Below are positions 7,330 through 11,066 of a stretch of DNA of 64,000 nucleotides, in pieces. The first letter of the stretch is position 1; each line of letters begins with the position of its first letter. The notes under the pieces are model-generated. The model saw only the letters and a program-made list of their open reading frames with translations, was not told the DNA's origin and ran no database searches. Origin of the DNA: Luteibacter aegosomatis (GTDB lineage Bacteria > Pseudomonadota > Gammaproteobacteria > Xanthomonadales > Rhodanobacteraceae); assembly GCF_023078455.1 (NCBI RefSeq), contig NZ_CP095740.1:4018001-4082000 (forward strand), written 5' to 3'. The position numbers were made by a program, and so were the translations under genes.

Positions 7330-8763
7330 ATGAACGCCGTCACCAAAGATTCGTCCTTCCAGGACTACAAGGTGCGTGACATCTCCCTGGCCGACCTCGG
7401 CCGCCGCCGCATCCGCATGGCGGAAGAGGAAATGCCGGGCCTGATGCAGATCCGCGCCCGCTATGCCGCCGAGAAGCCCCTCAAGGGCGTGCGCCTCTCG
7501 GGCTCGCTGCACGTCACCAAGGAAACCGCCGTGCTCGCCGAGACCCTCCGCGAGCTGGGCGCCTCGGTCCGCTGGGCCTCGTGCAACATCTTCTCCACGC
7601 AGGACGACGTCGCCGCCGCCCTGGCCGCCGGCGAACTGCCGGTGTTCGCCTGGAAGGGCGAGTCGCTGGAGGAATACTGGGAATGCACCCTCGACATGCT
7701 CACCCACCCGGGCAAGCTGGGCCCGCAGCTGATCGTCGACGATGGCGGCGACGCCACCCTGTTCATCCACAAGGGCGTCGAGCTCGAAGACGGCAGCGAC
7801 TGGGTCAACACCCCGAGCGGTAACCACGAAGAGCAGGTCATCAAGAACCTGGTCAAGAAGACGGCCGCCGCGCGTCCGGGCTGGTTCAAGAAGATCGCCG
7901 CCGAGTGGAAGGGCGTGTCCGAGGAGACCACCACCGGCGTGCACCGTCTCTACCAGCTCGCCGAAGCGGGCAAGCTGCTGGTGCCGGCCATCAACGTCAA
8001 CGATTCGGTCACCAAGAGCAAGTTCGACAACCTCTACGGCTGCCGCGAATCGCTCGCCGACGGCATCAAGCGCGCCACCGACCTCATGGTCGCCGGCAAG
8101 GTCGCCGTGGTGTGCGGCTACGGTGACGTGGGCAAGGGCTGCGCGCATTCGCTCAAGGGCTTCGGCGCCCGCGTGATCGTCACCGAAATCGATCCGATCA
8201 ACGCCCTGCAGGCGGCGATGGAAGGTTTCCAGGTCACCACCGTCGAAGACACCCTCGGCATGGCCGACATCTACGTCACCACCACGGGCAACAAGGACAT
8301 CATCACGCTCGAGCACATGGCGAAGATGAAGAACAACGCCCTGGTCTGCAACATCGGCCACTTCGACAACGAGATCCAGATGGATCGCCTGAACGCGTCG
8401 AAGGATGCGACCCGCGAAACGATCAAGCCGCAGGTGGACCGCTACACCTTCGCCTCCACCGGCAACAGCATCTACATGCTCGCCGAAGGCCGCCTGGTGA
8501 ACCTCGGCTGCGCCCACGGCCACCCGAGTTTCGTGATGTCGAACAGCTTCTCCAACCAGACCCTCGCCCAGCTCGACCTGTGGGCGAACAAGGACACCTA
8601 CGAGAAGACGGTGTATCGCCTGCCGAAGAAGCTCGACGAGGAAGTGGCCCGCCTGCACCTCGCGCAGATCGGCGTGAAGCTCACCACGCTCACCAAGGAA
8701 CAGGCCGACTACATCGGCGTGCCGGTGGAAGGGCCGTACAAGCCGGATCATTATCGTTACTGA
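7330..8763 (+). CDS. ahcY: Adenosylhomocysteinase (SAH hydrolase)
   Basis: A 477-residue cytoplasmic enzyme that splits S-adenosylhomocysteine into adenosine and homocysteine, clearing the inhibitor of methyltransferases. The NAD-binding motif CGYGDVGKG sits near residue 262, and the C-terminus ends YKPDHYRY, including the lysine and tyrosine used in cofactor binding in this family. It has the longer bacterial form with an inserted segment around residue 150 ([17 protein letters not shown]). An SAH riboswitch lies directly upstream. The 3' 184 bases are present a second time at 10883-11066. In many proteobacteria metF follows ahcY closely; here it is 4.8 kb downstream, past an accessory stretch. 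Confidence 0.97.
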
Positions 8764-8786
8764 TCGGGCGGGTGGTTGGCTCGTGA

Positions 8787-8816
8787 GAAAGGCGCCCCTT
8801 GGGGCGCCTTTCTTTT
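8787..8816 (+). terminator. Rho-independent terminator after ahcY
   Basis: A perfect GC stem, AAAGGCGCCCC/GGGGCGCCTTT with a TT loop, followed by TCTTTTTG. It starts 23 bases after the ahcY stop codon. A related terminator follows the duplicated ahcY end at 11090-11118. Confidence 0.9.
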
Positions 8817-8892
8817 TGAATTGACGGCTGCCGCCCGGAATTGCGAGCATCCGACAGGTCGCCGAGGGAGCGACTTAACAGGGGACAATGGA

Positions 8893-9804
8893 ATGAGCAA
8901 CTACACGAGATGCCTCATCTTCTTGATGGGCTTGGCCTTTTCGGCTATTGCGCCGGCCCAGGACACGAAAGTCACTTATTACTATACCGATCCTCAGGGC
9001 ACCGTTCTCGCCACGGCGGACGAGCAAGGCAATATTCTGACCACAGCGGAGCGGCGCCCCTATGGAGAGCAAGTGCTGGGGGATTCGGGACCCGGACCCG
9101 GATACACAGGGCATGTGAGCGACCCGGACACCGGGCTCATCTACATGCAAGCTCGCTATTACGACCCTGCGGTAGGTCGATTTCTAAGCATAGATCCGAT
9201 AGCACCCTCGACAGGCGACTCTTTCAATTTCAATCGCTATGTCTATGCCAACGACAACCCTGTGGTAAATACCGATCCTACAGGGAAGATAGTTCACCTG
9301 ACTAATAACGAGGCAACCCTCGTCGAGCTGATCAACTCCAGAGCATTGGGAACTTTCGGTGCCGACAAGGATGGAAATCTCCAACTGACCGATGCCAAAG
9401 GCGATGCATCGAAGTATTCCAGCACCTACACGGCGGAACTCAAATCTGCGATCAGCAGTAAATCCGTGATTTCCATTTCGATAGGAAGAACTTACACAGA
9501 CCCCCGCAGCGGAGTCATTAAGAAAGTAGATGCTGATGCAGGAGGCGGAGTAACGATTGGCGCGAGAAGCGGCGGCAATCAGAAGGTTGTCATTTCCGGA
9601 AATTCAAACACAACACTTAAGGATGTTTCCGGCGAACCTTTGCGTGACACCCCAGCCGACATTTTGGCGCATGAACTAGGCGGACATGCCATTCCCCACG
9701 TTATAGGTACCCAGACTGGCAACGCTGTGGAGGACGAAAACAGGATCAGAAACGAAGTTCCAGGAAGCGGGCAACGTGCTCCCGAACCGTCGCACCAGGA
9801 GTAA
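8893..9804 (+). CDS. Short secreted RHS-core protein with putative metallopeptidase toxin tip
   Basis: A 303-residue protein. Residues 1-22 form a Sec signal peptide ending APAQ. Residues 26-130 are one RHS repeat-associated core (YYYTDPQGTVLATADEQGN, YTGHVSDPDTGLIYMQARYY, DPAVGRFLSIDPI, YANDNPVVNTDPTGK), the hallmark before a variable toxin tip in RHS/polymorphic toxins. Most of the usual long RHS shell is missing. The tip (131-303) is unrelated to the core. Near its end it has HELGGH at 260-265 and EDEN at 280-283, which look like a zinc site of HEXXGH type with a downstream acidic ligand. Codon use is less GC-biased than in neighbours, suggesting transfer. The next gene starts 3 bases after the stop and is the candidate immunity gene. 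The peptidase assignment is inference. Confidence 0.75.
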   Translation: MSNYTRCLIFLMGLAFSAIAPAQDTKVTYYYTDPQGTVLATADEQGNILTTAERRPYGEQVLGDSGPGPGYTGHVSDPDTGLIYMQARYYDPAVGRFLSIDPIAPSTGDSFNFNRYVYANDNPVVNTDPTGKIVHLTNNEATLVELINSRALGTFGADKDGNLQLTDAKGDASKYSSTYTAELKSAISSKSVISISIGRTYTDPRSGVIKKVDADAGGGVTIGARSGGNQKVVISGNSNTTLKDVSGEPLRDTPADILAHELGGHAIPHVIGTQTGNAVEDENRIRNEVPGSGQRAPEPSHQE

Positions 9805-9807
9805 AAC

Positions 9808-10209
9808 ATGACCACAAGAACTTCGAAGAATCCAAAAATACTGCCGTTGAGTACCTTAGCCTCCGCTCTGCTCTGCTGCTCACAAACTGGATACTCCAAC
9901 CAATACAAGGAAATCAGCCTCTCGCAGAAAGTGGAAAACTCCGACTTGGTGCTAATAGCAAAAATTGCCTCCATCAACACAAAATCATGTGTTGAACTAA
10001 GCAGCTGTGCATCCGTGCGAGTAAAATCACTGCTCAAAGGCGAGCCACCCAAGGACTTCGAAGTCCTATTTAACGGACCGATCGCGGAAGAGGATCCCTT
10101 ATGCTGCAAAATCGGCTCGACATACCTTATGTTTTTAAGAAAATTCGAAGATAGATATTATCAATCAACCAATGGCCCATATGGAATTTACCTGATCGAA
10201 ATTCCATAG
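9808..10209 (+). CDS. Small secreted protein, candidate immunity partner of the RHS toxin
   Basis: A 133-residue protein starting 3 bases after the RHS gene stop codon, so the two are surely co-transcribed. The N-terminus (basic, then a hydrophobic stretch to about residue 28) looks like a signal peptide; a cysteine pair there (LLCC) does not fit a normal lipobox. The remainder shows alternating strands: SDLVLIAKIASI, ASVRVKSLLKGE, FEVLFNGPI, then CC and GSTYLMFLRKF. That pattern resembles NTR/TIMP-type OB folds, whose animal members inhibit zinc metalloproteinases. Position and small size fit an immunity protein acting in the periplasm. The fold link is my inference from pattern only. Base composition is AT-richer than in core genes. 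Confidence 0.55.
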   Translation: MTTRTSKNPKILPLSTLASALLCCSQTGYSNQYKEISLSQKVENSDLVLIAKIASINTKSCVELSSCASVRVKSLLKGEPPKDFEVLFNGPIAEEDPLCCKIGSTYLMFLRKFEDRYYQSTNGPYGIYLIEIP

Positions 10210-10364
10210 ATTTCTGCTGTAACAAGAATTATTGATGGACGAGATCAATATCGGACGAAAGTATCCCATCCTTCTACGTTTGCCATGAGGAACCAGATTG
10301 GACTGGATCGCTCGCCAAGAAGTAGCTCTCGGCTGTAAATGCATTCCGAAAAATGGAGCCACTC

Positions 10365-10807
10365 ATGAGCGAGTTGAAAAAAGTTTTTTTCGAATCGAGC
10401 AGGATGCCGATGGCTACCCTCCGGTGGGTGCTGAGTCGTTGTGGGCAAGGCAAGCGGAACGCGTGGGTGAATACGTCCTCGAGAACATACCATTCTTCAG
10501 CACCCATGCGACGTTGGGTGACTTACTCAAAGTCGTCGAGAAAGAAGGCGTGCTCTGGTTCGACGGCTTGATCAAGAAGTCAGGCAATTCACTCATAAGA
10601 GTCGTTTTCTTCAATCGCGATGCGCTGGACCCAATCAATCAAGCGTTGATGACGATGGGATGCCTTACCGAGTATTCCAAAGACTTCAATCTATTAGCCA
10701 CCAGCATCCCCGAAAAGGTAAATCTCACGGAAGTGCAATCTTTCCTCGCCGATCAGGAACACCTTGGTTTCATCGACTATGAAGAGCCCATTCTCCGCCA
10801 GGATTAG
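10365..10807 (+). CDS. DUF4265-type protein, reading frame broken near the start
   Basis: The best start is the ATG at 10365, with GGAG 9 bases upstream. It reads MSELKKV and then runs into the A6-G-T7 tract at 10377-10390. The conserved part ([54 protein letters not shown]) is in the frame one base back, to 10807. Reading it requires a -1 slip or one added base, which gives [17 protein letters not shown]. Alternatively a TTG at 10298 opens the second frame directly, but it lacks a ribosome site and gives an uncharacteristic N-terminus. DUF4265 proteins are common near polymorphic toxins, so this may be an orphan immunity gene. Whether it is live, slipped or decayed is unresolved. Confidence 0.6.
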
Positions 10808-10882
10808 ACTGCGGATGGGAAACATGACAGGCCCCGTCCAAGCATCGGCCCGCTGGGACTCGTCCATGAAATCGAGGAATTC

Positions 10883-11066
10883 GTGGGCGAACAAGGACAA
10901 ATACGAGAAGACGGTGTATCGCCTGCCGAAGAAGCTCGACGAGGAAGTGGCCCGCCTGCACCTCGCGCAGATCGGCGTGAAGCTCACCACGCTCACCAAG
11001 GAACAGGCCGACTACATCGGCGTGCCGGTGGAAGGGCCGTACAAGCCGGATCATTATCGCTATTGA
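10883..11066 (+). pseudogene. Duplicated 3' end of ahcY (61 codons)
   Basis: Bases 10883-11066 repeat 8580-8763 of ahcY almost exactly. I see only a few substitutions: an AAA replacing ACC-type bases near the start and two silent changes in the last codons. The frame is kept and ends in the same PDHYRY tail. There is no start codon or ribosome site of its own, so it is a gene fragment. It is followed, like ahcY, by a GGCGCC terminator. The copy brackets the RHS cassette with the true ahcY end and probably marks its mode of insertion. Confidence 0.9.

Follow-up and report, generated by a model that had tools for sequence, protein, structure and literature searches.

A displaced ahcY 3' end brackets an RHS cassette in Luteibacter aegosomatis and probably records an exchange with one illegitimate end

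The window analysed here is a stretch of 64,000 nucleotides from Luteibacter aegosomatis (contig NZ_CP095740.1, positions 4,018,001 to 4,082,000; genome G000, a single contig of 4,757,936 bp, with other G numbers denoting compared genomes and L numbers denoting loci). Within it, a short RHS toxin tip and its likely immunity gene lie between ahcY, which encodes S-adenosylhomocysteine hydrolase, and a gene that we take, from its sequence, to be metF (Table 1). The cassette is bracketed by a direct repeat of 187 nt, in which bases 8580-8766 recur at 10883-11069 with 98% identity and a spacing of 2303, and a search of the entire genome placed this sequence at these two sites only. The first-pass annotation had described a 184-bp duplication of the ahcY end around the cassette, with ahcY kept whole and a GGCGCC terminator behind each copy, and all of this was confirmed. 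The copies differ at four of the first 184 bases (positions 18, 19, 178 and 181 only), copy 1 is the 3' end of an intact 477-aa ahcY frame, and both copies are followed by a GGCGCC hairpin with a T run (the second recognized by eye, the hairpin scan having given only 8785-8814).

Copy 2 is an ahcY tail fragment that starts abruptly at codon 418, and no similarity between the copies was found upstream of 10883. At the other edge, ungapped identity ends 3 bp after the stop codon; the regions 3' of both stops have 43 of 71 gapped columns in common, chiefly in the hairpin, and it is this hairpin-dominated similarity that leads blastn to extend the repeat to 240 bp at 90%. A hairpin at this place is ordinary, with GGCGCC lying within 75 nt of the ahcY stop in 18 of 22 relatives. 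The two tails carry different allele types at codon 423 (ACC versus AAA), and both kinds of base at the differing sites segregate among relatives in the genus. The central 158 bp between the edge differences are identical in both copies; the longest identical run in 253 species pairs was 129, and the chance of a 158-bp run was calculated, post hoc, as 0.0015-0.010. This restriction of the differences to the edges suggests gene conversion between copies of different origin.

Table 1. Features between ahcY and metF in G000 (window coordinates)
Feature	Position	Strand	Basis
ahcY, S-adenosylhomocysteine hydrolase, 477 aa, intact	7330..8763	+	Open reading frame (ORF); Pfam AdoHcyase 1.1e-142
Repeat copy 1, functional ahcY 3' end	8580..8766	+	Repeat comparison
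Terminator after copy 1	8785..8814	+	Hairpin scan; 3' region like that of G011 (57/62 columns), which has the same cassette
Short RHS tip, 303 aa	8893..9804	+	RHS-associated core TIGR03696 3.4e-21; signal peptide by eye
P2, 133 aa, likely cognate immunity protein	9808..10209	+	Pairing with tip in 3 other loci
DUF4265 ORF, TTG start	10298..10807	+	PF14085 1e-23
Final 75 bp before right junction	10808..10882	+	DNA comparison with genus
Repeat copy 2, displaced ahcY 3' end	10883..11069	+	Abrupt left edge at 10882/10883, where the illegitimate joint is proposed
Terminator-like GGCGCC hairpin and T run after copy 2	11090..11118	+	By eye
Alpha/beta hydrolase	11117..11920	-	Pfam
Region before metF where similarity resumes (within ~11 bp) in 20/22 relatives	13463..13524	+	Alignment
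Presumed metF, right limit of variable interval	13525..14352	+	ORF; synteny

The ahcY-metF interval was then compared across a set of 23 Luteibacter genomes, G000 included, with G011 and G014 represented by fragmented assemblies. The second 187-bp tail is confined to G000; the other 22 genomes yielded no second tail of similar length, and short second DNA matches of 24-35 bp occur in G001, G002, G003 and G012. Five genomes (G010, G013, G017, G019 and G020) have a gap of only 132-246 bp between ahcY and metF, and others have a longer interval with varied cargo, so that, judged from these alignments, the interval is a locus of variable cargo. The relatives thus do not all carry one arrangement, as an old duplication unrelated to the cassette had been expected to leave. 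The empty sites (5/23) and alternative cargoes anticipated by the first-pass annotation do exist, whereas the different cargo between two tails that it also anticipated was not seen in the other 22 genomes.

RHS tips lie in the interval in three of the 23 genomes (G000, G011 and G014), with the G014 contig stopping ~2 kb past ahcY. In G011 the ahcY-metF interval contains the same RHS-immunity pair but one ahcY tail only, and this genome matches G000 at 91% from ahcY to 10330, where the match breaks to resume at 13463; the same cassette therefore exists behind ahcY with one tail. After the G011 cassette lies a fragment with a weak rve match, below the cut-off. The alpha/beta hydrolase beyond copy 2 was not found by tblastn in the stretches read behind ahcY in the other 22 genomes, and no metF appeared within the 8 kb read after ahcY in G006. 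As a separate observation, Pfam identifies a Tle1-like effector with an XVIPCD domain in the G015 interval (L112), with a smaller ORF upstream, an independent cargo of antibacterial type, and the G005 interval (L109) has ORFs that resemble those of G015 by eye.

Duplication of the ahcY tail is rare across the family and order. A family scan found an ahcY match in 221 of 233 genomes and two matches in four (G000, G071, G056 and G060); G071 was rejected as a tail duplication, its two tails lying in 511-aa frames far apart, which leaves three cases among the 221. Both G056 and G060 belong to another genus, g5, and their extra tails accompany cargo unrelated to that of G000, with no blastn similarity among the three inserts where the loci were compared. 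In G056 the repeat is 237 bp long (88%), starts within 2 bp of the G000 breakpoint and encloses ~3.2 kb of cargo. In G060 it is 588 bp long (93%), runs from near codon 297, includes the terminator and encloses 1.1 kb. The genes after copy 2 of G060 (DUF885-like and patatin-like, named by eye) directly follow a single ahcY in G053 (92% and 88%), which places copy 2 of G060 at its native position, and a homologue of a gene beyond copy 2 of G056 sits after a single ahcY in G058. A third, decayed ahcY-end piece with a terminator was also observed inside the 3.2-kb insert of G056 (L242) and suggests nested insertions at the same gene end.

A hotspot at wider taxonomic scale was considered and rejected. 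At order level (385 of 398 genomes matching), the scan added only G300, with two long ORFs on different contigs. The class scan, restricted to genomes of completeness at least 97 (330 of 379 matching), gave 18 two-match genomes besides G000, 15 of them with a distant second match; G846 has two equal ahcY copies on separate contigs, G615 has two 52-aa frames on two contigs, and G724 has a decayed second ahcY tail 377 bp away.

Elsewhere in G000, 12 RHS-core matches are covered by eight stretches (273 kb, window included), and within these the end of a non-RHS gene is duplicated in three cases: ahcY, L211 and L213. A 400-kb control stretch without RHS matches, compared after the fact, held no duplicated gene end, and its near-identical local repeats were intergenic or within one long ORF. 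At L211 the repeated sequence is the 3'-terminal 123 bp of a TonB receptor gene, up to its stop codon, with 98.4% identity between the copies; the gene is an open 959-aa frame that matches TIGR01782 over a 468-aa part (4.8e-83, below the model cut-off). Between the two TonB ends lie 2.1 kb that contain a 168-aa ORF as well as a YD fragment and a decayed tip, and a gene of this locus matches the SUKH family. The displaced TonB piece adjoins the interior of a YD gene with zero bases between (by eye, with a one-base offset). L211 is, as the joined bases read, an illegitimate joint with both partner genes known. The simplest reading of its sequence is that an incoming module of YD gene, tip and SUKH-family gene, with its ragged end inside a convergent TonB gene, would have formed an illegitimate joint with the older YD copy of the recipient. 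The idea that ahcY is the sole non-RHS gene involved was dropped once this case appeared. At L213, a 119-aa ORF that follows a tip has its terminal 116 bp repeated at 91%; the ORF is a presumed immunity gene that gave no family match, and the repeat does not bracket its tip.

Bracketing repeats were also checked in 58 tip loci (57 from a longer list plus the window), taking the longest eight repeats per locus. Repeats of at least 28 bp bracket the tip in nine of these, and repeats of at least 100 bp in four: the window, L196 (YD-gene copies), L211 (a YD copy and the TonB end) and L230 (repeated RHS cores plus two further repeats). A repeat near an RHS locus at genome position 2,101,757 (213 bp, 88.7%) does not fall at the end of a gene under the criterion applied. 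At L291 (G000 3,011,514-3,014,348), an 885-bp duplication of 98% identity between two YD/RHS ORFs has the classical pattern of Rhs displacement.

Taken together, we consider it probable that copy 2 is an ahcY end displaced by an allele exchange with a homologous crossover on one side and an illegitimate joint on the other (homology-facilitated illegitimate recombination). Either a left block comprising ahcY, the RHS tip and the immunity genes would have arrived anchored in ahcY, its ragged right end then joining the recipient ahcY at codon 418, or a right block would have arrived anchored near metF with its ragged left end inside ahcY. Such an exchange would require no integrase, and gene conversion between the two copies would have followed later. 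The non-homologous joint that this predicts is present at 10882/10883, as it is between TonB and YD at L211, and the allele differences hint at a homologous crossover at the other end. The distinct codon 423 alleles and 3' regions of the copies, unlike those of a plain tandem copy, and the native position of copy 2 in G060 are also in its favour. The first-pass annotation had offered homologous exchange of toxin-immunity cassettes as its second option; that proposal fits better than the integrase reading, with the amendment that one end is illegitimate, as at L211.

Several points weigh against this reading. A strain in the state before the event is not among the compared genomes, and the incoming block may have been the left or the right one. 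The copies differ by 2%, below the difference between G000 and G011 (13-15/184) even though G011 has the same cassette, and this low divergence requires a recent event or gene conversion. In G060, copy 1 lies nearer to G053 than copy 2 does in the first 300 bases, with 12 differences against 28, and over the last 183 bases the two copies show 14 and 12 differences, respectively. Ungapped tail homology stops within ~5 bp of the stop codon in four of five cases, a regularity greater than joins made at random would lead one to expect, and the G000 and G056 breakpoints in ahcY lie no more than 2 bp apart; the chance of two of three breakpoints falling this close is 0.011-0.023, computed after the agreement had been seen.

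One alternative, which we hold to be unlikely, is a Campbell insertion, in which RecA inserts a circle bearing cargo and an ahcY tail, and the reverse reaction excises it for re-insertion at ahcY elsewhere. This yields the observed order exactly, the displaced tails of ~115-240 bp in four of five cases could be the carried homology, and the edge-only differences are compatible with recombination between the copies. It leaves unexplained the TonB/YD joint, where a tail abuts the interior of another gene, and no circle was seen.

Site-specific integration, in which an attachment (att) core at ahcY codon 418 restores the gene end while the integrase has been lost or acts in trans, appears quite unlikely. 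It would account for the near-identical breakpoints of G000 and G056 despite unrelated cargo, and for ahcY remaining whole in both. However, Pfam scans, the only search made for serine recombinases, gave no recombinase domain, either in the cassette genes named above or in 10 other ORFs from the cassette and its right flank (a set that does not include every small ORF). In the genome search of G000, matches to PF00589 (tyrosine integrase) were ~232 kb or more away, with none within 200 kb; those of G056 and G060 lie on other contigs. The G060 breakpoint, near codon 297, is elsewhere in the gene, and just three tail duplications were seen among the 221 family genomes with a match. A virus or phage carrying the ahcY tail alone was also sought and rejected: most of 11 viral loci hold a full or nearly full ahcY, the exceptions being L253, which starts inside an ahcY, and L256, a divergent partial match, and two phage records with annotated ahcY cover query residues 14-60, so that no lone tail was found among them. 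Plasmids gave 82 records, and among the ten listed, seven have an annotated ahcY and three have no annotation there. The likeness to an integrase-type, target-restoring cassette drawn in the first-pass annotation is therefore unsupported.

There is a slim chance of a dedicated gene-end-restoring insertion without a classical integrase, landing repeatedly and precisely with housekeeping genes as docking sites; the stop-codon edges and the breakpoint agreement of two genera would mean a dedicated gene-end process of this sort. That the ahcY end was duplicated locally long ago, with a cassette inserted later and independently, is very improbable, given that the G000 sequences after the stops are alike in little but the hairpin and the genus comparison gave no relative that has two tails but lacks cargo, even though the G060 copies do have their terminator in common, as a simple duplication would give.

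Known systems resemble this locus in part. In icd-type integrase islands, insertion in the 3' end of a protein gene keeps that gene whole and leaves a duplicate end on the far side. A duplicated gene end likewise brackets the element here, but no integrase was found, the cargo is not common to the cases, and the breakpoint differs in one of the three ahcY cases. Minimal mobile elements in Neisseria hold variable cargo between fixed neighbours, with homologous recombination in the flanks; the variable cargo between conserved neighbours is alike, whereas the two-sided exchange there leaves no gene-end duplicate. For Rhs tips, Jackson et al. (2009; PMC2935791) propose circles and describe a new toxin tip behind the anchor with the older 3' end shunted downstream and dissociated. 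Set against that account, the present locus is alike in its new tip behind an anchor, its displaced 3' end and the absence of a dedicated integrase, and its cargo of an RHS tip with a putative immunity gene matches as well; it is unlike in that the anchor there is the rhs core and here is ahcY, unrelated to the toxin, with a TonB end at a second locus. For the sequential displacement of type VI secretion system (T6SS) effector-immunity modules in Vibrio, Kirchberger et al. (2017; PMC5361080) propose, as a possibility, that an upstream anchor is used in a process resembling homology-facilitated illegitimate recombination, which leaves orphan immunity genes and a displaced effector 3' end behind the new module; the pieces in that account come from the toxin system itself, in contrast to the metabolic gene end seen here.

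The process is thus of a known kind, and what is new is a housekeeping-gene end as the displaced piece. No report of ahcY as an integration site or displaced end was found in the literature, within a scope that mostly did not extend to subscription papers. The turnover of toxin modules is already known to leave displaced toxin fragments as a trace. If the ends of housekeeping genes also serve as such traces, cassette imports outside rhs and T6SS clusters could be found through short duplicated gene ends, and the joints would reveal the illegitimate end of the exchange, for which the TonB/YD joint supplies both partners.

With regard to the cargo, residues H260, E261 and H265 at the C-terminus of the tip are invariant in a 32-sequence alignment, and the C-terminal domain is a putative zinc metallopeptidase of HExxxH pattern. 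A fold search with the toxin domain had an RHS core as its only match at E <= 0.001 and gave nothing significant for the toxin C-terminal domain itself; sequence searches against solved structures returned nothing useful, and PADLOC gave no result. The tip-P2 pair also occurs in G011 (93% and 89%), in G010 and once more in G000, and its recurrence makes P2 the likely cognate immunity protein. A low-confidence model indicates that P2 may have a TIMP/netrin-like fold. A literature search, including a term look-up in PMC3482391, found no TIMP-like immunity protein, which is not proof of absence. The second toxin-P2 pair in G000 (L215, 4,694,166-4,695,052) has a toxin reading frame broken by two TAG codons. 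The TTG start of the DUF4265 ORF, whose nearest ATG (10366) lies in a different frame, suggests that it is perhaps a decayed orphan immunity gene. Its DNA has no match in the other 22 genus genomes, and within 10230-10882 similarity to another genome of the genus (G011) is limited to the first 101 bp.

Other tips vary in their setting. Seven orphan tips (L179, L203, L221, L229, L175, L186 and L187) lie co-directionally just behind conserved genes, which by eye resemble ftsK (in two species), rho, pilU, a fabG-like gene, an MFS transporter and an ABC permease, with no bracketing repeat of at least 60 bp at such tips. In a split form of Rhs (L211, L213, L196 and others), a YD-repeat ORF of ~1600 aa is followed by a separate, often overlapping ORF of 300-400 aa that contains the RHS core and toxin and often starts, by eye, like a signal peptide. 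By C-terminal motif, 19 of 47 resolved tip loci are YD-linked; 11 of the 58 tip loci had no upstream call, and several of these proved YD-linked on closer view.

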